DNA of 43,088 bases. It comes from a virus. The stretch covers positions 1 through 43,088 of IMG/VR virus record IMGVR_UViG_3300007076_000003; one strand, given 5' to 3'. Below are positions 173 to 42,490 of this stretch, piece by piece (position 1 is the first letter of the stretch; every line of letters starts with the position of its first letter). The position numbers were made by a program, and so were the translations under genes. The notes beneath the pieces were generated by a model that was given only the letters and a program-made list of their open reading frames with translations, ran no database searches and was not told the origin of the DNA.

Positions 173-201
173 AGTATACGCGCGGAAGTTCACGAGAGCA
201 A
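173..201 (-). promoter_or_regulatory. Host sigma70-type promoter for SSB
   Basis: On the minus strand there is TTGCTC (201-196), a 17-bp spacer and TATACT (178-173), close to the sigma70 consensus. It overlaps the stop codon of the RNA polymerase gene and leaves an untranslated leader of roughly 25-30 nt carrying the AGGAGGG site of the SSB gene. The AAGTATACG block on the plus strand also occurs at two other predicted promoters (6347 and 37261). Confidence 0.65.
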
Positions 202-2685
202 GTGCTGGCTCCGAAGAACTTCGCGAGGATCGAAGTCCCCGCGCTCCGGTGCGGGCGGAAGCTCGGCCTTGTCGCCGAGGTCGCGCTGGAGCTCGGCCCG
301 CAGCTGCCCGAGGAGGTCCGCTTGGAAGACCTCCGCGCACACCCCGCGGACCGCCTGGATCACCTTCGGGGTGTCGGCCGCCAGCGCCATGTACGAGTCG
401 TGGACCGTCCCGATCGACCGGACCCCGCGCTCGCGGAGGCGGCACACGGACCGGGCCATGATCGCGGAGTCGATCGAGTGCACGAAGTTGGGCGGGAACC
501 CGTTCGACTGCCGGCCGCCCGAGAGCTCCGGCCTGTCCTCGCGGTACCGCACGAACCGGATCACGTCCCCGACGGCCGTGCGGATCCGCTTCGACTTGTA
601 CCGGCGGTAGTCCTGGATCACGGGCCACCCGCTCGGGGAGGTCCAGCGGATCGGCAGGTCGTGCTCGGTCATCGTTCGGGCGCACTCGACGAGCCAGTCC
701 ATCGTCGCCGTCGACGCCCCGATGCGCCCCTCCATCGCCGCGATCAGGTGACGGGCCAGGAACGTCGAGGCGCGGAAGGCGCCCCCTTCGAGCTCCGGGA
801 ACGGGGTGTGGCCCTGGGCGATGCGGATCTCCTCGTAGACGTCCCGGACGTAGTTCACGATCGAGTGCAGCTTCACCCCGTACGGCTTCGTCATGATCGG
901 CCGCTTCGTGAGCTCGCGCGGCACCCGGCCGCCCAGGAACTCCAGCCAGAGGGCGGCGTTCGGGTCCGGATCGGCGACGAGCCGGCGGGTGACGTCGTCG
1001 GCCACGATCTGGTAGAGGTCGACCGGGGCGTCGGAGGGGGCCACGTTCGTCGCGGCCGCGAGCTCGCGGTCGAGGGTGAGCAGGGAGTACAGCTGGAGCC
1101 CGCTGGACGTGTGGTCGACCGTGATCGGCAGGTGGGACGCGTGGTGCCCGGGGCGCGCGGCGTGCGCGGCGTAGTCGAGGGCGAAGGCGAGCGCCTGCCA
1201 CGGGTCGTCCTGCGCGGCCCACTCGCGGCGCCCGCGCGGGTCGGCCCCGATCGCGACCCAGAGCGGGGCGAGCCGGTTCCGCGCGCCCTCCACGCGACTC
1301 CGGACGCTGCCCTTACCCATCCCGTACAGGCTGGCCCCGCGGGACAGGTAGGCGTCCTGGGCCTCGCGGTCGGCGACTGGTTGGCCCTCCTGGAACTCCA
1401 GGAGCGCGCGCGCCAGGTCGTCCCCCTGCGGCTGGAGGAAGAGCGGCTGCGGGTAGAGCCGGCCGCGGAAGTCGGCCTGGAGGGGGAAGTAGAGCGCCGG
1501 CGCGTCGAGGTACTCCCCGGCGACCCAGAGGGTGCGCGCGCGCAGGAGCGCCCGGCCGCGGTTCTCGCGGTCCTGGCGGAAGAAGTCCGAGCGGACCCGG
1601 ATGGCCCGGTCGCGCTCCAGTCGCTGCTCGGCGGTCCAGCCGTCGATCTGGTCCTTGCGGGGCTGCGCGGGCGGGAGGTCGGCGGGGAGGACGTCCGTGA
1701 CGGGCCGGAACCCGACGACGTCGAGGCCGGCGTCCGCGGCCCACCGGGCGACCTCCAGGACCGGGCGATTCACCCGCCACCCGCTGCGCTGGAGGGCGTT
1801 CGCGGCCCCGAGGTGGAGCTCCGCGCTCGCCGCGTCCACGGCGTCGAGGGATGCCCGGTCCCGGGTCTTCACGAGCGGCCGCTCCCGCAGCCGGGTCACG
1901 CGGTAGCCCCCGCCCCACGCCCCCTTCCAGTCGGCCGGGGCGGTGCGGGTCGGGAGCCAGATGGGGCGGGCGAGGGAGTCGCCCTTCGCCGCGCGCTCCA
2001 GCCACTCGACGGCCTTCGCCGTCGGGGTGACGAGCCGGCGCTGGCGGCCGTTCGCGTCCGAGAGGTTCGTGATCTCGACGAAGCCGGTGTGCATCCGGAT
2101 GAGCTCCAGGAGGACGACGCCGACTCGGAACCGCTCGGAGATCGGCCAGCCGGACCAGGACCCCCCGAGGTTCGTGAGGGCCGACTCGACCATCTTCCGG
2201 CGCACGCCGCGGGTGCGCGTCCGCTGGACTCGGCGGGACAGGTCCCGCCACAGGGAGCCCTTGTTCTTGGTCTTCACGGCGACCATCATGGCCTCGTCCT
2301 CCAGCGCGGTCCCGATGCGGTGCGCGATCGTCTGGATCCCCGTGCGGCCCGTGAGGTAGTCGAGGCAGGTGCGGAAGGCGATGGCGGAGATCACGCCGGG
2401 CTTGAGCGTCGCGAGCAAGACGGACGCGGTCGCGTGTGCGGGGCCGGGGCGCGCGGAGGCCTGCTTGATCCACTTCTTGACCTCCGGTTCGAGGGCCCGC
2501 GTGGCCTCGGAGAGCAGGCGCCGGCCCCCGGGGCCGTCCGGGCGGTAGCCGTACTTCGCGGCCCGCTCGTCCCGCTCGCGGTTGCGGGACTCGGTGGACC
2601 CGACGATCAGGTCCTCGACCCGCTGGTCCGAGAGGGCGACGTCGACGCCCGTGGGCGCCGGTCTTGAACGTTCATCGCGTCGCAT
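190..2685 (-). CDS. T7-like single-subunit DNA-directed RNA polymerase
   Basis: This is the phage RNA polymerase, 831 residues (T7 gp1 is 883), which would transcribe the middle and late genes. Motif A is DHTSSGLQ with catalytic Asp about 524. Motif B is TKRPIMTKPYG with Lys about 594 and Tyr about 602, the same Lys-to-Tyr spacing of 8 as T7 K631/Y639. Motif C is VHDSY with catalytic Asp about 763. FPPNFVHSIDSA just before motif C matches the T7 APNFVHSQDGS stretch. The carboxyl end (DPREVLRSQHLLS) aligns with the T7 terminus. The chosen ATG (2685) overlaps the end of the upstream HNH gene by 14 nt. A longer in-frame extension exists but would run deep into that gene. The enzyme looks complete and active. 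Confidence 0.95.
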   Translation of the reverse strand: MRRDERSRPAPTGVDVALSDQRVEDLIVGSTESRNRERDERAAKYGYRPDGPGGRRLLSEATRALEPEVKKWIKQASARPGPAHATASVLLATLKPGVISAIAFRTCLDYLTGRTGIQTIAHRIGTALEDEAMMVAVKTKNKGSLWRDLSRRVQRTRTRGVRRKMVESALTNLGGSWSGWPISERFRVGVVLLELIRMHTGFVEITNLSDANGRQRRLVTPTAKAVEWLERAAKGDSLARPIWLPTRTAPADWKGAWGGGYRVTRLRERPLVKTRDRASLDAVDAASAELHLGAANALQRSGWRVNRPVLEVARWAADAGLDVVGFRPVTDVLPADLPPAQPRKDQIDGWTAEQRLERDRAIRVRSDFFRQDRENRGRALLRARTLWVAGEYLDAPALYFPLQADFRGRLYPQPLFLQPQGDDLARALLEFQEGQPVADREAQDAYLSRGASLYGMGKGSVRSRVEGARNRLAPLWVAIGADPRGRREWAAQDDPWQALAFALDYAAHAARPGHHASHLPITVDHTSSGLQLYSLLTLDRELAAATNVAPSDAPVDLYQIVADDVTRRLVADPDPNAALWLEFLGGRVPRELTKRPIMTKPYGVKLHSIVNYVRDVYEEIRIAQGHTPFPELEGGAFRASTFLARHLIAAMEGRIGASTATMDWLVECARTMTEHDLPIRWTSPSGWPVIQDYRRYKSKRIRTAVGDVIRFVRYREDRPELSGGRQSNGFPPNFVHSIDSAIMARSVCRLRERGVRSIGTVHDSYMALAADTPKVIQAVRGVCAEVFQADLLGQLRAELQRDLGDKAELPPAPERGDFDPREVLRSQHLLS

Positions 2686-2983
2686 AGGCCTCGGCCTTTC
2701 TGAGCCAACGTTCAGGGTGGTCGATCGTTCCCTCCAGGCGCACGTTGCAGGGAGAGCAGAGCATCCCGCGAGCGGCTCCAGTGCGGTGATCGTGATCGAC
2801 AATCAGGCGGCGCAACCGTCCACAGATGTCGCACAATCCGCCTTGCTGCGCTACAAGGGCGACCTCCGCTTGTTGTTGATCGAGTCCGTAGCGGCGCATG
2901 AGCTTGCGCCGCGCCTCCGTGAATCGTCCGCGATTCGTCTGGCGGTATCGCCGACGGGCGAGCCGCCGCGATTGGGCGGTCAC
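2672..2983 (-). CDS. Endonuclease VII-like HNH nuclease (copy 1)
   Basis: This is a 103-residue protein of the recombination endonuclease VII family (HNH/beta-beta-alpha-metal nucleases such as T4 gp49). It shows CDIC, then VDHDHRTG, RGMLCSPCN and a short helix, so the zinc-binding cysteines (CxxC...CxxC) and the DHDH metal/catalytic motif are all present. The GTG start overlaps the previous stop (GTGA), and the gene runs 14 nt into the RNA polymerase gene. It is one of four such genes in the window. It could be a Holliday-junction nuclease, a free-standing homing endonuclease or a host-DNA nuclease; the sequence does not decide. Confidence 0.85.
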   Translation of the reverse strand: MTAQSRRLARRRYRQTNRGRFTEARRKLMRRYGLDQQQAEVALVAQQGGLCDICGRLRRLIVDHDHRTGAARGMLCSPCNVRLEGTIDHPERWLRKAEAYATR

Positions 2984-3285
2984 GAGTCGTCGTCCTCGTC
3001 TTCGGCGCCCGGCGGCGGCCCGTCCTCGACGGTCGCGCCCTTCGGGGTCCACCCCTCCCGGGCGATCTTGTCGACGAGCCCGTCGACCGCGTGGTGCAGG
3101 TTCCGACGGAGGCGGGCGATCTCGGCGTCGAACCCGCCGCCCGTCCACGACAGGCCGTCGGTCGCGTACTCCAGGACCCCGTCCTTGACGCCCCGGTAGA
3201 CGACGATCCGGACGGCCATCGGCGGGGCGCTGCGGTCCTCCTGACCGTCGTACCCGGCGATGGGGTAGGTGGTGTCGCGGGTCAT
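2980..3285 (-). CDS. Unknown protein, acidic C-terminus
   Basis: I do not recognise this protein of 101 residues. It has a predicted beta/alpha core (VRIVVYRGVKDGVLEYATDG) and a helix (EIARLRRNLHHAVDGLVDKI), and ends in a strongly acidic tail (GAEDEDDDS). Start and stop overlap the neighbours by 4 nt (ATGA and GTGA), which supports its being translated in the early operon ahead of RNA polymerase. Acidic small early proteins are often host-takeover inhibitors or DNA mimics, but nothing specific is seen here. Confidence 0.7.
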   Translation of the reverse strand: MTRDTTYPIAGYDGQEDRSAPPMAVRIVVYRGVKDGVLEYATDGLSWTGGGFDAEIARLRRNLHHAVDGLVDKIAREGWTPKGATVEDGPPPGAEDEDDDS

Positions 3286-3845
3286 CCCGAGAGTCCCCCG
3301 AACAGGCGCTTCGCGGCGGCCATGAGGCGCTTCCCGGCGACGATCGGGACGGCCGCGGCCGTCGCGGCGAGGCGGGCGACCTTCCCGAGCGGGGAGGCCT
3401 GGAACGTCTGGGCGGACGCGAGGGCCCGGCGGCGCTTCTCGGCCTCGGCGTAGATCCAGAGGCGCGACAGGAGCGGGGTCATCCGGCGCTCGGACCGGCT
3501 GACGTGCCCGGTCTGGTAGTCACGAACCTCGTGCTTGGGGCCGCCCTTCGAGCGGAGCGCGCGCCGCTCCCGGCGGTTCAGGCCGAGGAGGATCAGGCGG
3601 GCGGTCTCGGAGGAGGTCCGGCCGGAGAGGAAGTGCGCGTCCCCCGGGCCGACGATGATCGGCTGCCAGGGGGTCGCGGCGCGGCGCTGGGCCTTCGTGA
3701 TCGGCACCTCGCCTGGGGCCTCGGTCGGGTGGCCGATCAGGGCGCGTCGGGCGTCGAACATCGCGGCGCGGCGGCGCTTGCGGGGCAGCTTGAGCCACGC
3801 GATCGTGGTCGGGTCCCCTCCCGCCGGCATGTTGAAGTGGGCCAT
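3282..3845 (-). CDS. Unknown basic protein
   Basis: An unrecognised protein of 187 residues, rich in Arg/Lys throughout (for example KLPRKRRRAAM and LGLNRRERRALRSKGG). Its carboxyl end contains an amphipathic or weakly hydrophobic Ala-rich stretch (VARLAATAAAVPIVAGKRLMA). The ATG shares one base with the stop of the upstream DUF4406-like gene (TGATG), and its stop overlaps the next start. Basic charge suggests nucleic acid or membrane-surface binding; this is inference only. Confidence 0.7.
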   Translation of the reverse strand: MAHFNMPAGGDPTTIAWLKLPRKRRRAAMFDARRALIGHPTEAPGEVPITKAQRRAATPWQPIIVGPGDAHFLSGRTSSETARLILLGLNRRERRALRSKGGPKHEVRDYQTGHVSRSERRMTPLLSRLWIYAEAEKRRRALASAQTFQASPLGKVARLAATAAAVPIVAGKRLMAAAKRLFGGLSG

Positions 3846-4294
3846 CAGGTGGTCCTCGTGTGACGGTACTCGCGGATGGAGTCGACGCCGACCTGCCCGC
3901 GGTCCGGGATCAGGTACCGCCCGCCGACGAGCTCCCACCGGGGGATCCCGCGGAGGATCGCCATGTCGCGCTCCATGTTCGCCCCGCTCGACTTCCGCCA
4001 GCCGGGGAGCAGGACGACCGCGTCGCACTCGGCGAGCTCGCGGAGGTCCCGCTGGAGCATCTGGTTCACGGTCTCCGTCGGGAGCGCGTAGGTCCCGTCG
4101 TACCCGAACTGGTGCCGGTCGATGTCGGCCGGGTTCACGGGGTCGACGCCCAGGGTCCGCTTGAGCAGGCGCGCGGCCGCGTCGAACGCTGGGAAGTTGT
4201 GCGCCGGGTAGCCGCGCATCGGGCCGGCGACGTAGACCCGGCGGCCGCCCATGAGCATCCGGGGGCGGCGCACTTCGTCGCGGGAGGAGATCAC
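3845..4294 (-). CDS. DUF4406-like protein (nucleoside deoxyribosyltransferase fold)
   Basis: 149 residues with a GTG start in a GTGA overlap. The first strand VYVAGPMRGYPAHNFPAFDAA and the later DAVVLLPGWRKSSGANMERDMA match DUF4406, a phage family related to nucleoside 2-deoxyribosyltransferases. The GPMRG loop and the GWxxSxGAxxE stretch correspond to the nucleotide-binding loop and catalytic-Glu region of that fold. The role may be nucleotide or base metabolism or modification; the substrate is unknown. An internal ATG at residue 13 (MLMGGRR) is an alternative start that keeps the whole domain. Confidence 0.75.
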   Translation of the reverse strand: MISSRDEVRRPRMLMGGRRVYVAGPMRGYPAHNFPAFDAAARLLKRTLGVDPVNPADIDRHQFGYDGTYALPTETVNQMLQRDLRELAECDAVVLLPGWRKSSGANMERDMAILRGIPRWELVGGRYLIPDRGQVGVDSIREYRHTRTT

Positions 4295-4512: not shown

Positions 4513-4583
4513 CGGAAGTACCTCTCCAGGAAGACGAGGGCGGCGAGCGCCCCCGCGGTGACGATCGAGACGGCGAGGGCCAT
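4509..4583 (-). CDS. 24-residue membrane peptide
   Basis: A tiny frame encoding MALAVSIVTAGALAALVFLE plus RYFR, a single transmembrane helix with a basic end. Its ATG shares one base with the upstream stop (TGATG) and its stop overlaps the downstream ATG (ATGA), so translational coupling supports it despite its size. It may act with the following 73-residue membrane protein. Confidence 0.5.
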   Translation of the reverse strand: MALAVSIVTAGALAALVFLERYFR

Positions 4584-4882
4584 CAGGCCTTGCGGACGGT
4601 CGAGACGACGCGCTCCACGGTGGCGTAGAAGTCCTTCGTGATGATGAGCTCGTGCTCGACGCCGGCGCCGTCCTCCAGGTAGCCCACCCGGAAGCGGCCG
4701 ACAGTCGCGGAGCCGATCAGGCACTCGCGGTCGGCGACCTTCTTGATCGCCTCGCCCGGCGTGCGGGCCATGACGAACAGGGTCGGCGTGCCGGCCTTCT
4801 GCTCGTAGTCGGAGCTCTCGCACGAGTACTGGACGCGGGTGACGGTGAACGGACGGCGGGCGTTGCGGCTGAACTTGGTCAT
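4583..4882 (-). CDS. Unknown protein
   Basis: 99 residues, not recognised. It looks like a mixed alpha/beta domain with strands around FTVTRVQYSC, TLFVMARTPGEAI and FRVGYLEDGAG. A good ribosome-binding site (GAGGGACACTCCT) precedes the ATG. It is the first gene after the RNA ligase and is separated from it by 48 nt holding a possible -10 element. Confidence 0.65.
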   Translation of the reverse strand: MTKFSRNARRPFTVTRVQYSCESSDYEQKAGTPTLFVMARTPGEAIKKVADRECLIGSATVGRFRVGYLEDGAGVEHELIITKDFYATVERVVSTVRKA

Positions 4883-4924
4883 AGGAGTGTCCCTCGGTTG
4901 GTGGTGTGGTTCGGGCAGAGCCGA

Positions 4925-4948
4925 ATTGTACTACGCGAACAGGTCGGC
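4925..4948 (-). promoter_or_regulatory. Possible weak sigma70-type promoter
   Basis: A TACAAT -10 element lies at 4930-4925 on the minus strand, just after the RNA ligase stop codon, with only a poor -35 (TTCGCC, 18-bp spacer). It would give a short leader for the 99-residue gene starting at 4882. Weak evidence. Confidence 0.3.
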
Positions 4949-5893
4949 GGCGAACTTCTTCGTGAGTCCGACGACGTGGGACCGGAGGAGCTTGAAGTCG
5001 ACCTTCGGGTCCCGGTGTTCCTTGAGGGCGTCCCAGAGCTCCTCGGTGACGAGGTCGTGGTAGACGGTCGTCAGGAGGCGGGGGATGATCTTCGCCCGGT
5101 GGTTGGCCTCGACGTGCTCCCGCCAGTCGCCCGGGACGGTGTCCAGCCGGAGCTCGGCGGCGATCGACAGGGCGATCTTGGCCCGGGTCTTGTCGACGAG
5201 CGCGGGCGTGCATCGGGCCGTCGCGATAGCGACCTCGACCTGGAACTCGCCCTGCTTCTCGGTGGTCCCGAACGCGAGGGCGTTCTGCTCCTTGAACTCG
5301 TTCCGGACGATCTTCGCCCACGGCTGCTTCCCGTAGGCGTTCGCCCAGTCGTAGTTCTTCGCGACGATCCCCTCCCCGACGCCGCATCCGTCCCGGATGA
5401 GGAACGTGTTGTTCAGCTGGGCCTGCGCGGACAGCTGGTCCGCGGAGGGGTTCTCGATCACGCAGAGGGGCTGGACGAAGTCGAGGCCCGCGTGGATCAG
5501 GGCGGGGACGTAGTGGTCGTAGGGCATGAAGCGGCCCGCGGACGGCACGAAGACGTCGAAGACCCAGAAGCGGCGCCAGGCCTCCTCGCGGTACGTCTTC
5601 AACGTGTGCGGGACGAGCCACTCGCCGTAGAGGACCGCGCCGGCGGGGAGCTCCGACAGGGCCAGGGCGAACGACGTCACCCGCTCGCTCATGGCGCGCG
5701 CGAAGCCGGCGTTGTCGTCCTCGGGCGTGATGGCCCGGTTGCGGGACCCGAAGCGGAGCTCGCCGTCCTCCATCCAGACGGACGCGTTGGTCCCGTCGAG
5801 CTTGGGGAAGACGTGCACGCGGCCCACGAGGAGCCCCTGGACGTCGTCGTGGTTGACGCGTTCGACGTGGTCGTAGCGGCGGAAGAGGGTCAT
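4931..5893 (-). CDS. RNA ligase, T4 Rnl2-like
   Basis: 320 residues (T4 Rnl2 has 334). This is an ATP-dependent nucleotidyltransferase that seals nicks in RNA. Motif I is KLDGTNA with the AMP-accepting Lys31; motif Ia is GSRNR (49-53); motif III is YGEW (89-92); motif IIIa is FWVFDVF (109-115); motif IV is GEGIVAK (173-179); motif V is AKIVRNEF (193-200). All six are intact. The remaining 120 residues form a helical carboxyl domain as in Rnl2. It begins only 22 nt after the 3' end of a tRNA-Tyr gene and sits on the same predicted transcript. This suggests repair of cleaved tRNA as its job, by analogy with T4 RNA repair. No polynucleotide kinase/phosphatase partner was seen. Confidence 0.9.
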   Translation of the reverse strand: MTLFRRYDHVERVNHDDVQGLLVGRVHVFPKLDGTNASVWMEDGELRFGSRNRAITPEDDNAGFARAMSERVTSFALALSELPAGAVLYGEWLVPHTLKTYREEAWRRFWVFDVFVPSAGRFMPYDHYVPALIHAGLDFVQPLCVIENPSADQLSAQAQLNNTFLIRDGCGVGEGIVAKNYDWANAYGKQPWAKIVRNEFKEQNALAFGTTEKQGEFQVEVAIATARCTPALVDKTRAKIALSIAAELRLDTVPGDWREHVEANHRAKIIPRLLTTVYHDLVTEELWDALKEHRDPKVDFKLLRSHVVGLTKKFAADLFA

Positions 5894-5915
5894 CGTCGTG
5901 GTCTCCGTGGTGTGG

Positions 5916-6003
5916 TGGTGGGCGGGGTACGAGTCGAACGTACGTGCTGCTGACGCAGTTCCGGGTTACAGCCGGATGCCTTCGGCCTCTCAGCCACCCG
6001 CCC
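5916..6003 (-). tRNA. tRNA-Tyr (GUA anticodon), CCA encoded
   Basis: On the minus strand a complete class II tRNA folds. The acceptor stem is GGGCGGG/CCCGCCC (7 of 7 pairs) and the D arm is a 3-bp GCT/GGC stem. The anticodon stem is TCCGG/CCGGA with loop CTGTAAC, anticodon GUA at 5969-5967. The long variable arm is CTGC/GCAG with a 4-nt loop. The T stem is GTACG/CGTAC with loop TTCGACT, the discriminator is A, and CCA is encoded. Long-variable-arm tRNAs reading Tyr codons are normal in bacteria. It begins 6 nt after the stop of the lipoprotein gene and ends 22 nt before the RNA ligase ATG. Confidence 0.92.
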
Positions 6004-6009
6004 GTGTAC

Positions 6010-6201
6010 TCAGTCCCGATCGCAGGGGCACGGGTTCTTCGGGCCGTACCCGACCCGCGGGTCCCCGTGCTCCTGGGTGGGCGTGACGCAGCCGTCGTCG
6101 CCCCCGTGGCCGCGGTGTCCCCGGCGACAGCCGGGCATCGCGAGGATCAGGACGAGGAGGGCGAGGGCCAGGACGGCGGGGAAGGTGCTGCGGTCGATCA
6201 T
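6010..6201 (-). CDS. Small lipoprotein-like membrane protein
   Basis: 63 residues. A signal segment (FPAVLALALLVLILAMPGC) ends in a lipobox-like MPGC with Cys25, followed by a short mature part rich in Gly, His, Cys and Pro. The ATG has GGAG at a 6-nt spacing. An in-frame upstream ATG (starting MRDLEPLRG) would place a soluble stretch before the signal and is less likely. It is the first gene after the strong promoter at 6347-6375 and precedes the tRNA. Superinfection exclusion or a spanin-like role is conceivable; no family is recognised. Confidence 0.6.
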   Translation of the reverse strand: MIDRSTFPAVLALALLVLILAMPGCRRGHRGHGGDDGCVTPTQEHGDPRVGYGPKNPCPCDRD

Positions 6202-6230
6202 GGTGGTCTCCGGTTGGTTGTTCGAGTGCC

Positions 6231-6250
6231 CCGAGGGAGACGGCCCTCGG
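6231..6250 (-). other. Hairpin in the leader of the lipoprotein/tRNA/ligase transcript
   Basis: CCGAGGG (6231-6237) and CCCTCGG (6244-6250) form a perfect 7-bp stem with a 6-nt loop inside the roughly 140-nt untranslated leader downstream of the 6347-6375 promoter. It may be a processing or regulatory element. No T-tract follows. Confidence 0.35.
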
Positions 6251-6346
6251 AGCGGTTCCAGGTCACGCATCGGGCTCGGCGTTCTTGCGCTGGCCGGCCG
6301 GTCCGTCGGGATCACGGCGCAATACAGATCCCCCTGTTGGAGGTGA

Positions 6347-6375
6347 AGTATACGGCGATCGGCCGGCGGGGTCAA
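6347..6375 (-). promoter_or_regulatory. Strong host sigma70-type promoter for the lipoprotein/tRNA/RNA ligase operon
   Basis: Minus strand: TTGACC (6375-6370), a 17-bp spacer and TATACT (6352-6347), the closest match to sigma70 consensus in the window. The -35 overlaps the integrase stop codon (TGA at 6374-6372). Start of transcription is expected near 6340, reading the lipoprotein, tRNA-Tyr and RNA ligase. Confidence 0.7.
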
Positions 6376-7226
6376 GCGGATTTCCCGGAGACCTGCCGGA
6401 CCCAGCGGGCCGCGTCCTCGTCGGAGACGTGCGAGTACCGCATGGTCGTCCGCACGGTCCGGTGGCCCAGGAGGCGGGCGACGACGGAGAGCGGGACGCC
6501 GGCGACGACGAGCCGGGTGGCGTAGGTGTGCCGGAGGGAGTGCGGGACGAGCTCCCGGTCCCCGGCGAGGCCCAGGGTCGCCTTCGCGGCCCGGAAGGCG
6601 TGGTCGAAGGCGGAGTGGGAGATTCGCGTGAACGGACCAGGGCCGTACCACGACCGGTTCGGCGACGGCACGAAGGCCCGCACACCGGGGACGACGCGCG
6701 CGTCCCCGTTCTTGGAGTCGCGGACCAGGACGCGCTTGGACAGGTCCTGAAAGTCCTGCTCGACGTCCTCCCAGCGGAGCGCGAGCGCCTCCCCGACCCG
6801 GAGTCCGCTCGCGAGCAGGAAGGCCGCGAGGGACCGGTAGGGCTCCGCGAGCGCCGCGAGGAGCCGGGGTTCCTCTTCGGGGGAGAGGACCCGCCGGCGG
6901 CCCTTGGGCTCGCGCTGGTAGAGGCCCTCGGGGGGCGCCACTTCGAGGAGCCCGAGACGGTGGGCCCGGCGCCAGACGGACATGATCGCGGAGAGGGTCC
7001 GGTTCTGGCTGGCGGTCGACTTGCCGTCCCGCTCCATCGCGACGAGGTGGTTCGCGACCCGGGCGGTCGTGAAGGCCTCCGCGGCGGGGAAGTCCGGGCG
7101 GCTCGACGACGCGGACCGGAGGAACCACTCGACCCGCCCGCGCGAGCGGCGGCCATGGAGGGTCGTGTTCCAGGAGGCCGGCGGGGCGACTTGGAGGACG
7201 TCGGCGATGGTGTAGGTGGCCTTCAC
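6372..7226 (-). CDS. Tyrosine recombinase (phage integrase)
   Basis: 284 residues from a GTG start that overlaps the upstream stop (GTGA). The core-binding domain covers about residues 1-105 and the catalytic domain about 115-284. All active-site residues are visible: Arg143 (SGLRVGEAL), Lys172 (SKNGD), His229 and Arg232 (PHSLRHTYAT), His255 (LLGHRTVRTTM) and nucleophile Tyr264 (MRYSHV). It would integrate the phage genome at an attB site or resolve multimers. Integrases are uncommon in T7-like phages but known in some marine ones. No repressor or excisionase is clearly identifiable nearby. The tRNA gene 370 nt downstream may be linked to the attachment site. Confidence 0.92.
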   Translation of the reverse strand: MKATYTIADVLQVAPPASWNTTLHGRRSRGRVEWFLRSASSSRPDFPAAEAFTTARVANHLVAMERDGKSTASQNRTLSAIMSVWRRAHRLGLLEVAPPEGLYQREPKGRRRVLSPEEEPRLLAALAEPYRSLAAFLLASGLRVGEALALRWEDVEQDFQDLSKRVLVRDSKNGDARVVPGVRAFVPSPNRSWYGPGPFTRISHSAFDHAFRAAKATLGLAGDRELVPHSLRHTYATRLVVAGVPLSVVARLLGHRTVRTTMRYSHVSDEDAARWVRQVSGKSA

Positions 7227-7429
7227 GCGCCCGTCCTCGCCCGGATCTCCTTGCACTTCGGGCAGACGTCCCGGTAGGGCGTCCCCGCCATGTCGAGGCC
7301 CATCATGCGGGCCCCGCAGAGGGCGATCTTCCCTGGTCGGACGTCGCCCCGGATGAGGTGCGTGAGGGGCGGCCAGGAGTCCAGCGTCTCGGGCTTGGTC
7401 GTCGGTTCGGCCTGCTCTTCGGTCTTCAT
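7223..7429 (-). CDS. Small zinc-ribbon-like protein
   Basis: 68 residues. A disordered, charged N-terminus is followed by THLIRG, LCGARMMG and VCPKCKEI; the His, the lone Cys and the CxxC pair could bind zinc. The pattern H...LCG...CPxC resembles short proteins common in actinophages; this is my recollection of the pattern, not a search result. Its ATG lies only 8 nt from a TACACT -10 element, so its mRNA would be leaderless or nearly so. It is the first gene of the early block and overlaps the integrase start, so a regulatory role in lysogeny or early expression is possible. Confidence 0.65.
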   Translation of the reverse strand: MKTEEQAEPTTKPETLDSWPPLTHLIRGDVRPGKIALCGARMMGLDMAGTPYRDVCPKCKEIRARTGA

Positions 7430-7590: not shown

Positions 7591-7616
7591 GGGTTCTAGG
7601 ATGGCACAGTTCCTGC
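7591..7616 (-). promoter_or_regulatory. Phage RNA polymerase promoter candidate, copy 1 (before early block)
   Basis: Minus-strand GCAGGAACTGTG followed by CCATCCTAGAACCC. It matches copies at 15763-15788 and 36586-36611 at nearly every position over 26 bp, including invariant GTGCCATCCTAGAACCC. It lies about 160 nt upstream of the early block in the divergent intergenic region. No coding frame explains the shared sequence. Confidence 0.6.
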
Positions 7617-7785
7617 ATGACCTGATCGACGTCATCGACAGCCGCAACTCCTTGAAGAACAAGGACTTGCGACTCCCGATAGACCTGAGCAGGAGACGGA
7701 GGGGAAGGCCCACGCCCACCTAAGATGTTGTCGATGAAGGACTTACGACGATGAACGGAGGAGGCCGACCAGAAGCGGATTCGAG

Positions 7786-15062: not shown

Positions 15063-15722
15063 CTAGACGCTCCTGTAGACCTGCTGCAACCCCGGAGTCC
15101 CCGAGGCCGGCGTGGCCGTGCGCGTGACCGCCGGGTCGGCCACGGCGACGTTCGTCGAGGTGCCCGCGCCGTCGTTCGTGACCTCCAGTCGTTGGGCCAG
15201 GTCTACCGGGGTGGCGTAGGTCACGGTGCAGACGGCGCCCGAGCGCGTCGAGGTGACGCCCGCGAGGGCGTCGATGGCCGCGTTCAGGCCCGTGGCGACC
15301 AGGGTGGCCGTGTCGCCCCCCTGGACGGTGTACGTCGCGGTGAGCCCCAGGACGTGCGCGGTCCAGACGACCCCGGTGGCGCCCGGGGCGGTGATCGTGA
15401 GGGTCCTGCCCTCGGTCGCGACCCACGAGGCGGCCCCGAAGTCCGAGTCGAACCCGCAGGTGGCGTCCGCGTCCGTGGTGATCGAGACGGTCGAGCTCGA
15501 CCGCGAGGCCGAGACGCCGTCCAGGGCGTCGATCGCGAGCTTGAGCCCCTCGGCGACCAGGGCGGTCGTGTCCCCGAAGACCGTCGTGTAGGACGCGACC
15601 CGGCCCCCCAGCCGGACGGTCCAGGCGGTCCCCACGGGGCCCGGCGAGGTGACGAGCAGGGCGACGGTCCAGGTGGTGTTCCCGGCGACGTAGTCGCGGG
15701 TGCGGTCGAGGGAGCGGGTCAT
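15063..15722 (-). CDS. Two-copy repeat-domain beta-rich protein (probable virion surface protein)
   Basis: 219 residues with a GGAG ribosome-binding site 5 nt before the ATG. Two copies of one module lie at about residues 30-82 and 108-170. Each has a strand AWTVRLGG or VWTAHVLG, then YTxxxGDTxxLVAxGL, AIDALxGV and SxSR...VxxT. The second copy is very close, even in nucleotides (15298-15335), to the module in tail tube B (28171-28209), suggesting recent duplication. First gene behind the phage-type promoter at 15763-15788, hence likely late and structural. Confidence 0.7.
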   Translation of the reverse strand: MTRSLDRTRDYVAGNTTWTVALLVTSPGPVGTAWTVRLGGRVASYTTVFGDTTALVAEGLKLAIDALDGVSASRSSSTVSITTDADATCGFDSDFGAASWVATEGRTLTITAPGATGVVWTAHVLGLTATYTVQGGDTATLVATGLNAAIDALAGVTSTRSGAVCTVTYATPVDLAQRLEVTNDGAGTSTNVAVADPAVTRTATPASGTPGLQQVYRSV

Positions 15723-15762: not shown

Positions 15763-15788
15763 GGGTTCTAGGATGGCACGGTTCTTGC
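15763..15788 (-). promoter_or_regulatory. Phage RNA polymerase promoter candidate, copy 2 (after terminase)
   Basis: Minus-strand GCAAGAACCGTG followed by CCATCCTAGAACCC, identical to the copy at 36586-36611 over the 26-bp core. It lies between the terminase hairpin and the 219-residue gene, giving a leader of about 40 nt. Confidence 0.7.
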
Positions 15789-15796
15789 GTGCCTCT

Positions 15797-25805: not shown

Positions 25806-28800
25806 CTAGCTCCTGTTGTACGGGGGGAAGGCGACGATGTCGTACTTGACCTCGAAGTCCGCGCTCTCGAACTTGGCCGGGAGCGGGCTGTTGCTCACGA
25901 GGTCGATCTGCGCGTCGCGCGCGTAGACGCCGAACCGGATCTCCTCCGTCATCAGGGGCAGGTTGCCCGCGACGACGTGGCGTCCGTTCGCGCTGGTGTA
26001 CTCGACGGTGAGCATCGACCGGAGGTAGGGCGTGAGCTCGACGGAGAAGTCCGCCGTGTCCTGGACGCGGACGATGCCGTGCTGGATCTGGAGTCGGCCG
26101 TTCGCCTGGACGTGCTGCTTGCCGACGCTCGGGTCGCCCGCGTGGATGTAGACCTTCGAGAACCGGTAGCGGAACTCGAACGTCTGGCCGATCCAGACAT
26201 CGTCGAGGGTGTGGTCGCCGGCCGCGGAGACGAGGGAGCCGCCGTCGAGCGTGAGGTCGATGACGTCGCCGCCGTCGTTCCCGTTCGGGCTCTTCGTGAC
26301 CGCGACGTACGTCTCGTCCGTGTCGGGCTCGTAGTCGAGCGTCCAGGTCGTGCGGTCCGTGTCGGGGTCGTAGGCGCTGTCGGGCGTGTCGACCCGGCGG
26401 TCGAGGTGAGTCAGGTAGAGCGCCCCCGGGTCGGTCCGCCCGGAGACGAGCTCCGAGGATTCGAGGTGCGTGCCGTCCGGCCGGTTCACGACGAGGTAGA
26501 GCGTGTTCCCGATGAAGCCCATGCCGAGCACGCGCGCGTTGTCGCCGAGGACCCAGCGGCCCCACGCGACCTGGTAGCGCGCGCCGCCCGCGATGAACGT
26601 CTTGAGCATGTAGAGCTTCGACTGGTCCCCATCCGCGAGCGTCAGGAGGATCCCTTCGAGCTCGGTCGTGGCGAACTGGATCGCCTTGCCCGACACGTAC
26701 TGCGGGACCGCGATGCTCACGTCGTCGACCTGGAACTGGTTCACGACCTGCGGGTCCGCGATCATCTGCCGGACACCGGTGAAGCTGCCGCGGACCGCGG
26801 GGAAGTAGATCCCCTGCGCGACCGTCACGGGATCGGCATCGCGGTCGGAAATGTACTCCAGGATCGGGGACACCTGGACGGACGCCGGCGTCAGGAGCGG
26901 CTGGCCGTCGAGCACGAAGTTGACGTGGTCCGACAGGAGGACGAGCGTGTGGTTGTAGGCGACCGCGTGGGAGAGGGAGATCGCCGTGTGGTGCGGGACC
27001 TTGATGTCGATGGGGTCGCTGTCGACGACGTCCTGGACGGTCGTCCGCCAGAGGTTGAAGAAGACCCCCACCTCGGACATCACGACCTTCTGGCCGCTGA
27101 TGAAGCCGAGCCGGTTCCGGAAGAAGAACACGTCGGCGATGGGGTCGCCGTCGGCGATACTCGGGTGCGGGGCGCTCGTGATCTCGTCGTCACCGACGGT
27201 CCTGGAGGCCCAGTCGATCGGCGCCCACTGGAAGTACTTCGCGTTCGGCGTGCCCGTGACCGTGCCGGATCCGTCGTCCTGCTGCCGGGTGAGGGCCCAG
27301 GGCATCGTGTCCGCGTCGAGGTCGGTCGCGACGCCGAAGCCGGACGACTCGATCCACCGGCCCTTGCTGAACGCGCCGAGCGCGTCGGCCGCGAACTGGA
27401 CGTAGTAGTCGTCCGTGGTCTGGTTCGTCCCGCCGTCGATCTTGATCTTGAACCCGTCCGTGCAGGTCAGGGGGAGCTTGTCGATCGCGTCGACCGACCG
27501 GAAGAGGGCGATCAGGAACGCGCCGCCCCGGCCGTCGTCCACCTTCACGGAGTCGAAGGACCGGACGCTCGTCCCGCCGATCGCCGTGTGGACCAGCTGG
27601 TACTGGCCGCCCGTCGGGGGCGTGACCGTGAGCGTGTAGGTGGCGGAGGGCGTGCCGTACGTGATCGTGAGCTTCGAGCCCGCGCGCGTGGCCGTGACGC
27701 CCGCGACGCCGGCGGCGATGGCCGCGCGGATCCCCTCGGCGACGTCGGCCGTGTGGTCGCCCGACTGGACCGTGTAGGACGCGGAGTCGGAGATCGGGGC
27801 GCCGAAGTTCAGCGTCCAGGTCTCCCCGACGACGCCGACCTGCTTCACGGAGAACGTATAGACGTCCGTGGTGACGGACGCGTTGACGACGTCGACCTTC
27901 ACGACCGACCCGGACACGGTGGCCGTGTACCGCGAGTCGGCGTCGATCTGGTCGGCGAGGGCCTGCGCGATGGCCGTGGTCTCGACGGAGGACAGCTGGG
28001 TGCTCGGGGCGCCGGCTTGGGTCTCCTCGACGGAGAAGGTCCCGTTCGTGGCCTGGACGACCGCGGGGGTGAAGTGCACCCCCTGGTTGTCGGCGGTGAT
28101 CGTGACGACCGACCCGACCCGCGAGGCCGAGACGTTCGCGAGGGCCGTGATGGCCGTGGTGAGCCCGGCCGCGACGAGTGCGGTCGTGTCGCCCCCCTGG
28201 ACCGTGTAGGACGCCGTGTTCCCGAGGATCGTGACGGTCCAGGTCGAGCCCGTGTTGCCCGTGGCCGCGATCGTCAGGTCCCACTTCTCCTGGAGTCCGG
28301 CGGAGAGCGTGTTCCCGTCCCAGGTCGTGATCGAGAAGTCGACCGCCGCCGAATCCGTGGTGAGTTTGAGGGACGCCTTGTACGTGGTGCTGTACTGGGC
28401 CCCGCGGACGAAGAGGTACGTGGTCGTGTTGCTCGGGTCCGGGTCCGTGACGGCGGACGACATCGCGGCGTCCACGGTCCGGTTCAGGAGGATCGTGTAG
28501 TCGACGAGCGTGAGCGCCTTGAGCTTCTTGTTCGCCTTCTCCGACCCCGTGTCCAGGTAGGAGAAGTCGGGCGTGAAGGGGGCGCCGGCGGACAGCGGGC
28601 CGTAGACGCCCACCTCGGTCCCGTCGGTCTCGAAGACCCGGATGCCGTCCGACTGGAACGCGACGATGTACTGCTCGTCCGTCGAGCGGTTGATCGTGTG
28701 GATCAGGGCGTCGCCGAGGTCGCCGTCGTCGAGCTTCTTGAGGTGGTCGATCGGGTGGCGCTTCGTGAGCCCGTCGGTCGGCGAGACCCACGCGTTGTCC

Positions 28801-28892
28801 ATGAGCTCGCATTGGCCCGGGAGGCGGAGGGAGTCGGCCTGCTGGCTCACCCCCTGGATCAGGGAGGCGACGGGGAGAGTGAAGCGGGGCAC
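25806..28892 (-). CDS. Tail tubular protein B (nozzle, T7 gp12-like), enlarged
   Basis: 1028 residues against 794 in T7. The N-terminus (IQGVSQQADSLRLPGQCELM) is the family signature, and the carboxyl part (VEYTSANGRHVVAGNL, IRFGVYARDAQ) is also typical. The excess is explained by an insertion at about residues 204-430 carrying at least two copies of a beta-rich module (WTVTILG, SYTVQGGDTTALVAAGL, VSASRVGSVVTIT; and WTLNFGAP, SYTVQSGDHTADVAEGI) that recurs in two other proteins of this phage. GTG start, one base after the previous stop. Confidence 0.9.
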   Translation of the reverse strand: MPRFTLPVASLIQGVSQQADSLRLPGQCELMDNAWVSPTDGLTKRHPIDHLKKLDDGDLGDALIHTINRSTDEQYIVAFQSDGIRVFETDGTEVGVYGPLSAGAPFTPDFSYLDTGSEKANKKLKALTLVDYTILLNRTVDAAMSSAVTDPDPSNTTTYLFVRGAQYSTTYKASLKLTTDSAAVDFSITTWDGNTLSAGLQEKWDLTIAATGNTGSTWTVTILGNTASYTVQGGDTTALVAAGLTTAITALANVSASRVGSVVTITADNQGVHFTPAVVQATNGTFSVEETQAGAPSTQLSSVETTAIAQALADQIDADSRYTATVSGSVVKVDVVNASVTTDVYTFSVKQVGVVGETWTLNFGAPISDSASYTVQSGDHTADVAEGIRAAIAAGVAGVTATRAGSKLTITYGTPSATYTLTVTPPTGGQYQLVHTAIGGTSVRSFDSVKVDDGRGGAFLIALFRSVDAIDKLPLTCTDGFKIKIDGGTNQTTDDYYVQFAADALGAFSKGRWIESSGFGVATDLDADTMPWALTRQQDDGSGTVTGTPNAKYFQWAPIDWASRTVGDDEITSAPHPSIADGDPIADVFFFRNRLGFISGQKVVMSEVGVFFNLWRTTVQDVVDSDPIDIKVPHHTAISLSHAVAYNHTLVLLSDHVNFVLDGQPLLTPASVQVSPILEYISDRDADPVTVAQGIYFPAVRGSFTGVRQMIADPQVVNQFQVDDVSIAVPQYVSGKAIQFATTELEGILLTLADGDQSKLYMLKTFIAGGARYQVAWGRWVLGDNARVLGMGFIGNTLYLVVNRPDGTHLESSELVSGRTDPGALYLTHLDRRVDTPDSAYDPDTDRTTWTLDYEPDTDETYVAVTKSPNGNDGGDVIDLTLDGGSLVSAAGDHTLDDVWIGQTFEFRYRFSKVYIHAGDPSVGKQHVQANGRLQIQHGIVRVQDTADFSVELTPYLRSMLTVEYTSANGRHVVAGNLPLMTEEIRFGVYARDAQIDLVSNSPLPAKFESADFEVKYDIVAFPPYNRS

Positions 28893-35557: not shown

Positions 35558-35887
35558 CTACCGGCGCCTTTCAAGGTAGTCGGCCGCCGCGCGGAGTCGT
35601 TCAGGGGAATCGGCGAGGGAGCCAATGCCGGCGTTACACCCTCGACACAGGGTTCCACGGACTTCATCGGTTCGATGATCGTGGTCGATGCAGTTCAGTT
35701 CCTTCGTCGAGCCACAGATGGCACAAGGCGCCCGACGCATGGTGAGCATTTCCTCGACGGTGAGGCCGTAGCGCCGCGCGTCGGCGTTCAGATTCGCGCG
35801 ACGCGTGATCTCACGAAGTCGTTCCGGAGACTGCTTCGCGCGCCATCGCTGCTCGGACTGGCGTTGGTCTTCGGCGGTCCACGTCAT
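35558..35887 (-). CDS. Endonuclease VII-like HNH nuclease (copy 2)
   Basis: 109 residues. A basic helical N-terminus is followed by RYGLTVEEMLTM, CAICG, CIDHDHRTD, VRGTLCRGCNAGIG and a helix. All cysteine and DHDH residues of the family are intact. ATGA overlap with the gp6.7-like gene upstream. Its insertion between head-tail accessory genes, with tight overlaps, is like the other three copies. Confidence 0.85.
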   Translation of the reverse strand: MTWTAEDQRQSEQRWRAKQSPERLREITRRANLNADARRYGLTVEEMLTMRRAPCAICGSTKELNCIDHDHRTDEVRGTLCRGCNAGIGSLADSPERLRAAADYLERRR

Positions 35888-36066
35888 CGGGGAACTTGGA
35901 TGGGCGTGTAAGGAATGCTGAGTGAACTGGTCCCGAGCCGGGCCGCGAGGAGCTCCGCCTGCCGGCTGGCGTCCGGCTGCTCCGCCTTCGTCGCGGTGGC
36001 CTCCGGGGGCGGGGGCGGCGGCGGGGGCGGCGGGGGCGCCTTCGGCATGTCGGGGCTCAAGCACAC
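35884..36066 (-). CDS. Small polyproline virion protein, T7 gp6.7-like
   Basis: 60 residues from a GTG. MCLSPDMPKAP resembles the T7 gp6.7 start (MCFSPKIKTPK), followed by a run of eleven prolines, then EATATKAEQPDASRQAELLA and a short C-terminus. gp6.7 is a minor virion protein in T7. The gene lies at the same place, between exonuclease and portal. A shorter start at the internal ATG (MPKAP) is possible. Confidence 0.6.
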   Translation of the reverse strand: MCLSPDMPKAPPPPPPPPPPPEATATKAEQPDASRQAELLAARLGTSSLSIPYTPIQVPR

Positions 36067-36072
36067 GGCGGG

Positions 36073-36342
36073 CTACTCCTTGGCCTGCTTCTTGGAGAGG
36101 CCGATGAGGTGGAGGGCGAGGAGGCGGGTACCCATGTCCATCCACAGGCGCTCGCTGGAGCTCTGCTCGGGGACGTGGGCCTTCTCGGGGAAGTGGTGCT
36201 CCAGGTACTTCACGAGGTCCCGGCGGATCTTGGGGGTCGGCGGGGGCGCCGGCTTCTCTTCGACCTTCCGGTCCTCGGGGTTCTGGAGTGAGCGCGGGAG
36301 CGCGCGGGGCTTCGGGATGCGCGGGTCTTCGGATTCGGACAT
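36073..36342 (-). CDS. Unknown protein of the gp6.5-7.3 region
   Basis: 89 residues; ATG at 36342 has GGAGG 5-9 nt upstream (an ATG four codons earlier is weaker). Charged, Pro-rich N-terminus, then RRDLVKYLEHHFPEKAHVP and LWMDMGTRLLALHLIGLSKK. Similar short proteins occur before portal in T7-like phages of environmental origin; the role is unknown. Confidence 0.6.
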   Translation of the reverse strand: MSESEDPRIPKPRALPRSLQNPEDRKVEEKPAPPPTPKIRRDLVKYLEHHFPEKAHVPEQSSSERLWMDMGTRLLALHLIGLSKKQAKE

Positions 36343-36357
36343 GGGCCCCTCCAAGGG

Positions 36358-36555
36358 CTAGTCGGACGCGGGATGCCGGGTCATGGTCGCCAGGCGGGCC
36401 TCGATCTTCACGAGGCGCTCGTTCATCGTCGCCATCTGCGCGGCGACGTTGTTCTGGTACCCGAACCACCGGTCCGCGGCCGTCCAGATGGCGGCCCCGA
36501 CGAGGACCAGGACCCCGAGGTTCGTGGTCGTGGCGGCGGAGATCGAGGTGCGCAC
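36358..36555 (-). CDS. Small membrane protein with coiled-coil tail
   Basis: 65 residues from a GTG with a strong GGAGG site 4 nt upstream. One membrane helix (LGVLVLVGAAIWTAADRWFG) is followed by a coiled coil (QMATMNERLVKIEARLATM). First gene after the phage-type promoter at 36586-36611. Small one-span proteins of this form include class II holins (T7 gp17.5 is 67 residues) and i-spanins; which applies is unknown. Confidence 0.65.
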   Translation of the reverse strand: MRTSISAATTTNLGVLVLVGAAIWTAADRWFGYQNNVAAQMATMNERLVKIEARLATMTRHPASD

Positions 36556-36585
36556 GGGGCCTCCGGTGGGGCACGAGGGGGGTTC

Positions 36586-36611
36586 GGGTTCTAGGATGGC
36601 ACGGTTCTTGC
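36586..36611 (-). promoter_or_regulatory. Phage RNA polymerase promoter candidate, copy 3 (before virion block)
   Basis: Minus-strand GCAAGAACCGTG followed by CCATCCTAGAACCC, identical over the 26-bp core to the copy at 15763-15788. It follows a hairpin terminator and precedes the first virion-block gene by 31 nt. Confidence 0.7.
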
Positions 36612-36625
36612 AAGCCCCCACCCCT

Positions 36626-36637
36626 GGTATATATACC
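36626..36637. other. A/T palindrome GGTATATATACC
   Basis: A perfect 12-bp palindrome with eight consecutive A/T bases in a G+C-rich genome, 15 bp upstream of the phage-type promoter and between it and a terminator hairpin. It may be an operator, a melting site or part of a replication origin (T7 origins pair a promoter with A/T-rich DNA). Confidence 0.4.
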
Positions 36638-36649
36638 CCCAGAAACGAC

Positions 36650-36676
36650 GGGACCCAGCCACCCCTGGCTGGGCCC
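36650..36676 (-). terminator. Hairpin after the dGTPase-like gene
   Basis: CCCAGCCA (36654-36661) and TGGCTGGG (36666-36673) with a CCCC loop, extended by GGG/CCC outside a one-base bulge. It begins 38 nt after the stop on the minus strand and separates DNA-metabolism genes from the virion block. Confidence 0.65.
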
Positions 36677-36714
36677 ACGCCGGACCGTCGGTCCCGCAGG
36701 ACGGACGGCCGTTC

Positions 36715-37197
36715 CTAGAAGGGGTCCGTGTCGAAGTCGTCCGGCTGGCGGGCGGTCGACTCGGCGGAGGCCTCCTCCTTGAACCGGGAGAGCTCGGAAA
36801 TGATCGGGACCGCCACGAGCCCCAGGAGCTCGCCGGCGACCGTGGTCCCCGCCGCGAGCGACTCGGGCAGGCGACCCTCCAGGATCCGCTGGCGGGTCCA
36901 CTCGTACCCGCTCATGTTCCACCGGACCGCGGCGGCGTGGTCCTCCGACCGGTCCCCGCGGATCAGCTGGGAGAGGTGGCGGGCCGCGGAGTCCTGGAAG
37001 GACTTGAGCGGGATCCCCTTCTGCCAGTTGTTGTCGTCGTACTTGAGGGCGCCGCGCTCAAGTAGCTGCGCGTCGCGCTCGATCATGTCCCAGTTGAGCA
37101 GGTCGAACCTGCCCTTGCCGGCGGCCTGGTCCCGCCGTGCGCCGGTCTCGAACGTCCGCCGCTGTCCGCTGTCCTTGGTCGTGAAGCTCTCGGTCAT
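36715..37197 (-). CDS. dATP/dGTP diphosphohydrolase N-terminal domain protein (DUF5664-like)
   Basis: 160 residues. FETGARRDQAAGKGRFDLLN, ERGALKYDDNNWQKGIPLKS, FQDSAARHLSQLIRGDRSED and HAAAVRWNMS match the dATP/dGTP diphosphohydrolase N-terminal family common in phages. Enzymes of this group cut dATP or dGTP to the monophosphate and pyrophosphate; whether this version is active on either is not known. AGGAG sits 5 nt before the ATG, and the start overlaps the exonuclease stop (ATGA). Confidence 0.8.
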   Translation of the reverse strand: MTESFTTKDSGQRRTFETGARRDQAAGKGRFDLLNWDMIERDAQLLERGALKYDDNNWQKGIPLKSFQDSAARHLSQLIRGDRSEDHAAAVRWNMSGYEWTRQRILEGRLPESLAAGTTVAGELLGLVAVPIISELSRFKEEASAESTARQPDDFDTDPF

Positions 37198-39868: not shown

Positions 39869-40152
39869 CAGAGGTACCGTATCGCGCGCCGAAGCGCCGC
39901 CTTTGATTCGAGGAACATCCCGATTCCCGTGTTGCACCGATGGCAAAGAATACCTCGGACACGTCCGGATCGGTGATCGTGATCGAGGTGAGTGGCTCGC
40001 GCTCGTCGACAGATGGCGCACTTCCCCCGTTGCTTTTTCAGCATAGAACGGAGATCCGAGAGCTCCACGCCATAACGGAAGCGGTACCAATACGCCTTCC
40101 ATTTCTCCGGGTTGGCGCGGCGCCAGCGAGCTTTGTATTCGGCGCGATTCAC
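39868..40152 (-). CDS. Endonuclease VII-like HNH nuclease (copy 3)
   Basis: 94 residues from a GTG overlapping the previous stop (GTGA). RYGVELSDLRSMLKKQRGK, CAICRRA, HLDHDHRSG, VRGILCHRCNTGIG and a helix. All metal and zinc residues present. It directly precedes DNA polymerase with a one-base overlap. Confidence 0.85.
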   Translation of the reverse strand: MNRAEYKARWRRANPEKWKAYWYRFRYGVELSDLRSMLKKQRGKCAICRRARATHLDHDHRSGRVRGILCHRCNTGIGMFLESKAALRRAIRYL

Positions 40153-40403
40153 GCCTTCCCTCCGACCTGGACCTTCTGCACGAGCTCGGCAATCCGCCGC
40201 ACCTCTGCCGTGACGATCGCGAGCCGGTCCAGCGTGTGCGCGCAAACCGCGGCGATCTCCTTCCCGGATTTGGTCCCCGTTCGCAGGGCGCGGTTCTTGA
40301 CGCCCAGCAGGAGGCCTTCGATCGTCGTATAGTACCCGACCTCCTTCCCGTTCTCCAGGAGGATCAGTTGGAACTCGTCCCGCTTCATCGTGTAGATTCG
40401 CAT
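40149..40403 (-). CDS. Unknown small protein
   Basis: 84 residues. A beta strand pair (FQLILLENGKEVGYYTTIEG) and two helices (LLLGVKNRALR and a long charged C-terminal helix). Similar small proteins occur between primase and polymerase in many phages; no function is known. Lies 7 nt after the primase-helicase gene. Confidence 0.65.
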   Translation of the reverse strand: MRIYTMKRDEFQLILLENGKEVGYYTTIEGLLLGVKNRALRTGTKSGKEIAAVCAHTLDRLAIVTAEVRRIAELVQKVQVGGKA

Positions 40404-42377: not shown

Positions 42378-42394
42378 GAAATATCTCGTGAGCA

Positions 42395-42490
42395 AGAGAC
42401 GCGACCGCCCCGTTCTCATCCACCTCTTGATGCGCTAGGCGCGGTTGCCGCTGGGCGGCCGGTGGGGAACGGGGCGGTCGACTTGTCTCT
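42395..42490 (-). terminator. Long inverted repeat between SSB and HNH (terminator/attenuator)
   Basis: A perfect 13-bp arm (GACCGCCCCGTTC at 42403-42415, complement at 42467-42479) encloses a 51-nt loop and is extended outside by AGAGAC (42395-42400) pairing with GTCTCT (42485-42490), which touches the SSB stop codon. On the minus strand it follows SSB at once, so it could reduce or pace transcription into the HNH/primase operon, or protect the SSB message. Confidence 0.6.

Follow-up and report, generated by a model that had tools for sequence, protein, structure and literature searches.

A tRNA-Tyr gene and an Rnl2-type RNA ligase gene as a candidate counter-defence cassette in the probable early region of an integrase-bearing T7-like phage

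The stretch of DNA analyzed here (the window, 43,088 nt as presented) is a complete circular map of a viral genome of 43,048 bp with 69.9% G+C, since the 40 bases at its start and end are identical and the joint of the circle is crossed by an independent virus contig, L002 (IMGVR_UViG_3300050506_000032, 99.98% identical). Its gene content includes a single-subunit RNA polymerase (RNAP), DNA polymerase, primase/helicase, a Gp2.5-like SSB, endonuclease VII and terminase, together with a head-tail adaptor, major head protein, tail proteins and internal virion proteins, and the virus is a T7-like (Autographivirales-type) phage that carries an integrase and has no close cultured relative. Its RNAP shares at most about 31% identity with those of cultured phages, the best matches being mostly phages of Alphaproteobacteria, and searches via the integrase, near DNA identity to phages, the tRNA in phages and the relatives of the RNAP did not yield a host. 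The same virus, ~96–100% identical over the aligned parts, is present in contigs L128, L129, L131, L132, and L002, and its contigs span four IMG/VR datasets (3300050506, 3300050504, 3300006914, and 3300050514).

The locus of interest extends from the integrase gene to the RNAP gene and comprises the following features, given in the order in which they would be transcribed; L010, L011, and L012 are virus contigs of the closest relatives.

6372–7256, minus strand: tyrosine-recombinase integrase (PF00589, 1.7e-26; PHROG 1, 5.4e-45), directly upstream of the promoter.
6347–6375, minus strand: sigma70-type promoter, TTGACC-17-TATACT, matching the consensus at 10 of 12 positions.
6010–6201, minus strand: putative lipoprotein of 63 aa with the lipobox ...AMPGC; the ORF begins MIDRSTFPAVLALALLVLILAMPGC.
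4883–6009, minus strand: tRNA and ligase cassette, a block of ~1.1 kb missing from L011.
5916–6003, minus strand: tRNA-Tyr(GUA), class II, with encoded CCA, A73, and C38 (ARAGORN and RF00005).
4931–5893, minus strand: Rnl2-type RNA ligase of 320 aa (Pfam RNA_ligase, 5.7e-15; PHROG 548, 1.6e-37).
4583–4882, minus strand: g99, probable early gene next after the ligase, with a 28% identical homologue in L011.
3845–4294, minus strand: nucleoside 2-deoxyribosyltransferase-like probable early gene, conserved in L010, L011, and L012.
190–2802, minus strand: phage single-subunit RNAP (PHROG 414, 6.4e-167), at the downstream end of the probable early region.

A preliminary description of this DNA, made from its letters, had placed a near-consensus sigma70 promoter and a small lipoprotein gene at the head of an operon, and both are present. 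Promoter-type sites number two in 4 kb, compared with 0.2 in shuffled sequence. The −35 box overlaps the stop codon of the integrase gene, as it also does in L011 and L012, where near-identical promoters lie at 1542–1570 (spacer 17) and 406–433 (spacer 16), respectively, and the promoter is supported by being kept in both of these relatives. From the promoter to the ligase, the only terminator-like site found is one at chance level in the leader (6343–6330). The lipoprotein ORF (6201–6010, minus strand) is 70% identical to an L011 ORF (1612–1788) with the same start; its lipobox was read by eye, and the protein has no family match in Pfam and PHROG scans. The extent of the operon, previously given as 5916–6375, needs to be revised, as the ligase gene (5893–4931) falls outside those coordinates; the integrase gene upstream and the RNAP gene downstream were both absent from that description. 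Beyond the ligase, the same strand carries in order g99, the nucleoside 2-deoxyribosyltransferase-like gene and the phage RNAP, the conserved part of which begins at about 2673. Because the operon leads into the phage RNAP gene, the lipoprotein-tRNA-ligase operon most likely belongs to the early genes, those that the host RNA polymerase transcribes. The anti-restriction gene 0.3 of T7 likewise sits upstream of the phage RNAP.

The tRNA gene starts 6 nt after the stop codon of the lipoprotein gene and ends 22 nt before the ATG of the ligase. It is the sole tRNA that ARAGORN finds in the genome, called as tRNA-Tyr(GTA) at 6003–5916 on the minus strand, and it scores 51.4 bits (E 3.7e-10) with RF00005; a whole-window gathering scan with the same model misses it. 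Every pair in the acceptor, anticodon, variable, and T stems is Watson-Crick, the discriminator is A73, and the CCA is encoded, all of which bears out the fully folding tRNA-Tyr(GUA) reported earlier. Judging from these sequence features, it is plausibly a functional tRNA. In the anticodon loop, CUGUAAC, position 38 is a C, whereas A38 prevails among the Alphaproteobacteria sampled. Anticodon-loop changes in phage tRNAs have been proposed as a means of nuclease evasion (PMC10264068). However, one tRNA-Tyr with C38 was encountered, and C38 proved to be the usual form in the alphaproteobacterial order concerned (that of genome G074), where the pattern is matched by 194 of 197 genomes; we therefore do not take C38 as evidence of evasion. 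Codon supplementation was also rejected, since tyrosine use is ordinary (2.4% of codons; 280 TAC and 9 TAT) and the anticodon confers no extra decoding ability.

The neighboring ligase gene is intact, and its distance from the tRNA is exactly as previously stated. The protein comprises a nucleotidyltransferase domain followed by an all-helical C-terminal domain. Motif I, KLDG, occupies residues 31–34, and K31, D33, and G34 are invariant in 40 sequences, as are E174-G175, K179, and K194; the Rnl2 family is characterized by a nucleotidyltransferase domain that bears motif I (KxDG) and the motifs through to V, and by the sealing of 3′-OH/5′-P nicks in duplex RNA. The structure model (mean pLDDT 93.6; helices at 198–319) has full-length T4 Rnl2 as its top hit in the PDB (2hvr, E 5.2e-11, ~356 columns), followed by a trypanosome editing ligase and then a Naegleria ligase, and a sequence-profile search agrees with the Rnl2-type assignment. 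The C-terminal domain is thus predicted to be all-helical as in full-length T4 Rnl2. The comparison with Rnl2 gives a TM score of 0.48 at an rmsd of 16 Å, and therefore the relative placement of the domains differs; with a TM score this low and an identity of 15%, "Rnl2-type" refers to domain architecture rather than to close kinship. As had been noted before, we detected no kinase/phosphatase partner: neither AAA_33 nor RlaP gave a match in the window, and PHROG and Pfam scans of the main ORFs brought up no such partner. AAA_33 scored above the cut-off in just three of the 44 other ligase-family records searched, suggesting that this ligase family is usually without a detectable kinase partner.

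Comparison with the relatives that are nearest in integrase and RNAP (RNAP identities of 75% for L010, 88% for L011, and 79% for L012, or 75–90% when L121 is taken together with L011) indicates how the two genes are arranged as a unit. The order in L011 is integrase, promoter, lipoprotein (70% identical), g99 homologue, deoxyribosyltransferase, and RNAP, and the stop codon of its lipoprotein gene touches the start of the g99 homologue, exactly where the window has the tRNA and the ligase. Since the L011 lipoprotein gene abuts the g99 homologue and both parts are missing together, the tRNA and the ligase appear to constitute a single block of ~1.1 kb, either gained in the window phage or lost in L011, with L011 as the one syntenic relative on which this block-wise presence and absence is based. 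L012 is without the lipoprotein gene as well, L010 carries other genes, and this slot is filled by differing genes in the early regions of the relatives.

This variability is also what would be expected if the tRNA and the ligase were independent accessory genes that chance had made neighbors at a variable early site, with the ligase working on nicks in other RNA or in DNA and the tRNA doing no more than boost translation. Further insertions nearby, such as an ORF resembling endonuclease VII that separates g101 from the RNAP, are consistent with such a view, and so is the gene neighborhood of the ligase elsewhere. Among 80 ligase-family loci kept from virus contigs, 79 are not from the window virus, and none of these 79 has a tRNA-Tyr near the ligase in the fetched flanks of up to 5 kb. 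The flanks hold 12 tRNAs of other kinds in 688 kb (0.0174/kb, ARAGORN), which is no enrichment over the background in the complete ligase-bearing records, 49 tRNAs in 2.33 Mb (0.0210/kb, RF00005). The conserved tRNA-Tyr/ligase linkage that the preliminary description proposed to look for in related phages was thus not found, and a general pairing of the two genes was rejected on both counts. At the level of whole records, a ligase and a tRNA are found together in 26 of 50 searched, and a tRNA-Tyr occurs in one ligase-bearing record, L097, inside a five-tRNA array; ligase and tRNA therefore co-occur in many phages of this family, with a neighborhood that is not conserved. Relatives do carry the ligase without the tRNA, which the preliminary description would have counted against itself if the tRNA were only an integration relic; that second part does not follow from the relatives' lack of the tRNA.

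However, chance neighborhood would not readily account for the lack of both parts together in L011, nor for a locus in an unrelated phage (L047, positions 5001–5980, record G024) in which a tRNA-Asn lies 11 nt behind a ligase of the same type, where a rough estimate from the densities gives about 0.1 case expected within 25 nt. We regard the two genes as somewhat unlikely to be unrelated cargo, although this explanation is, beside tRNA-dependent lysogeny, one of the two main rivals of the reading that follows. The record of L047 also has an ORF with a kinase domain ~5 kb beyond the tRNA-Asn, and it is possible that its ligase, tRNA-Asn, and kinase-domain ORF make up a T4-like repair set.

The reading that we prefer, tentatively and with a probability of roughly 0.4, is that of an early counter-defence cassette, which supplies tRNA-Tyr and reseals RNA that has been cut with 5′-phosphate and 3′-hydroxyl ends. 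On this view, the tRNA-Tyr and the ligase make up an accessory unit among the early genes that the host polymerase transcribes in this T7-like phage with an integrase, and their expression would be early, both ahead of the phage RNAP and alongside it. Host processing enzymes would cut the tRNA out of the lipoprotein-tRNA-ligase transcript, and the released tRNA, once charged, would top up the tRNA-Tyr pool, while the ligase would rejoin RNA breaks, most probably those made in tRNA by a defence nuclease of the host. The breaks would need to carry a 5′-phosphate and a 3′-hydroxyl, as left by metal-dependent nucleases, because no kinase/phosphatase was found. The intact tRNA and ligase, the promoter kept in two relatives, and the position upstream of the RNAP argue for this reading; the lack of a conserved tRNA-Tyr/ligase linkage (0/79) argues against it, as does the integrase, which lies 370 bp away and offers another use for the tRNA. 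A PADLOC scan of ten proteins returned no match.

The preliminary description had modeled the locus on T4, in which the kinase/phosphatase PseT and Rnl1, along with Rnl2, repair host-cut tRNA. The likeness lies in a phage ATP-dependent ligase proposed to reseal such tRNA, and the Rnl2-type assignment stands, with the limited closeness described above. Unlike T4, the window phage is T7-like with an integrase, has a ligase of the Rnl2 type rather than Rnl1 and a tRNA-Tyr adjoining it, and shows in the window no kinase/phosphatase of the kind that heals 2′,3′-cyclic phosphate and 5′-OH ends. Cuts made by PrrC require a kinase/phosphatase before they can be joined. We infer that a ligase without a healing partner fits nucleases leaving 5′-phosphate and 3′-hydroxyl ends better than it fits PrrC. 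Such nucleases exist: AriB of PARIS leaves tRNA ends with 3′-OH and 5′-P (PMC12409363), ends of a kind that needs no kinase for joining by an ATP-dependent ligase. Phage ATP-dependent ligases of the Rnl1 and Rnl2 types need precisely these ends and have been read as tRNA-repair enzymes (PMC7824862). In jumbo phages they are usually accompanied by kinases, and compared with those repair sets (Rnl1, Rnl2, or RtcB with tRNAs, PNK, and RlaP; PMC7824862), which likewise bring together a Rnl2-family ligase and tRNA in one phage, the window would represent a pared-down form with two parts, lacking PNK and RlaP, in a phage of 43 kb.

A tRNA-Tyr as the target of defence has a precedent in retron-Eco7, whose PtuAB depletes tRNA-Tyr, and T5-type phages restore it via their own tRNA-Tyr behind a strong promoter (PMC11555353). 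PtuB is an HNH endonuclease, and direct cutting of tRNA by PtuAB was left open by the authors (PMC11555353). As in T5 and SP15, the window phage has a complete tRNA-Tyr, predicted to be expressible, behind a strong promoter; in those phages, the tRNA-Tyr lies in a tRNA-rich region and a ligase is not mentioned (PMC11555353), whereas here a lone tRNA is paired with a ligase. The Tyr-directed counter-defence proposed in the preliminary description therefore retains the gene order, the early position, the block and the existence of a Tyr-directed defence on its side, and loses any general tRNA-Tyr/ligase pairing. A narrower proposal, namely a minimal single-isotype module of replacement tRNA-Tyr and nick-sealing Rnl2-type ligase, block-swapped into the early slot of T7-like phages, without end-healing and directed against a host nuclease that cuts tRNA-Tyr to leave 5′-phosphate and 3′-hydroxyl ends, strikes us as unlikely.

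The proximity of the integrase raises the possibility that the tRNA serves integration rather than defence. In phages with tRNA-dependent lysogeny, about 10 bp are common to the phage and attB, and the cognate phage tRNA is needed (PMC10865867). By analogy, integration might disrupt the host tRNA-Tyr gene and the phage tRNA-Tyr might then sustain the lysogen, the ligase being separate cargo. As in the mycobacteriophages concerned, the window has a tyrosine integrase and a complete phage tRNA, here of a normally essential isotype and 370 bp from the integrase gene, although the worked example there is of isotype Lys and lacks the extra ligase. A core of only ~10 bp would also fit a tRNA 3′ end that is absent from 84,980 genomes, and integrase-bearing T7-like phages are able to integrate (PMC8776855). 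However, the integrases of L010, L011, and L012 are 60–72% identical to that of the window and have no tRNA or tRNA fragment near them, including by cmscan; no repressor was recognized in the window phage; integrating T7-like cyanophages formed no stable lysogens (PMC8776855); and the joint arrival of tRNA and ligase would be left unexplained. We therefore consider tRNA-dependent lysogeny improbable here.

Alternatively, the tRNA-like sequence might be a classic attP, identical to part of the host tRNA-Tyr gene. Its position downstream of the integrase resembles that in the T7-like, integrase-bearing cyanophages P-SSP7 and S-TIP37, whose tRNA-derived attachment sites are tRNA-Leu fragments identical to the host gene (PMC8776855), and the near-identical contig L002/L118 ends inside the 3′ half of the tRNA, at window position 5936. 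In contrast to those fragments of 39–53 bp, the window has a whole tRNA-Tyr gene with perfect stems and CCA, no known host match, and a lipoprotein gene between it and the integrase. The 20-mer TTCGACTCGTACCCCGCCCA of the tRNA 3′ end occurs in 0 of 84,980 species genomes, a set that may not include the host, and neither this search nor the one with the integrase turned up an integrated copy. A search of 289 Alphaproteobacteria gave nothing similar, and a 24-mer is absent from viral contigs. Within the scope of these searches, and with no tRNA fragment near the integrases of L010–L012 by cmscan, we set aside an attP relic and disfavor a classic attP as very unlikely. The L002/L118 contig starts 21 nt from the tRNA 3′ end, within the T loop, which may reflect chance or may be what is left of a tRNA end that is shared or integrated; we did not use it as a sign of integration, because the breaks in this virus's other contigs are scattered over many unrelated positions.

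To return to counter-defence, each element of the proposed cassette is already known, from the tRNA-Tyr of T5 against retron-Eco7 and from T4 repair, and it is the combination and the setting that are new. A joint function of a replacement tRNA and a kinase-free ligase in an early slot is plausible but unproven. If it were true, the phage would both replace and repair one particular tRNA by means of a small early cassette, kinase-free repair would suffice where the host nuclease leaves ligatable ends, and undiscovered tRNA-Tyr-cutting defences would be expected in the host. If instead the lysogeny reading were true, tRNA-dependent lysogeny would extend from mycobacteriophages to T7-like phages.

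Several further elements recur within the genome. Four endonuclease VII-like ORFs (2672–3148, 35558–36922, 39868–40245, and 42033–42419) are present, two of which adjoin the genes for RNA polymerase and DNA polymerase; the ORF at 2672–3148 lies in the gap between g101 and the RNAP, which is only ~15 nt in L011. An element of ~26–31 bp, GTTCTAGGATGGCACGGTTCTTGC, is found at 7591–7621, 15763–15793, and 36586–36616, and also in L011, L133, and L134. Read in the plus sense it resembles a sigma54 −24/−12 site, and in the minus sense, in which most genes are oriented, it may act as the promoter for the phage RNAP. Finally, repeats of 77–105 nt (15213–15601 and 27711–28219) are common to an ORF near 15063–15722 and the tail protein at 25806–28892, which suggests that these segments are a repeat module shared by the two.
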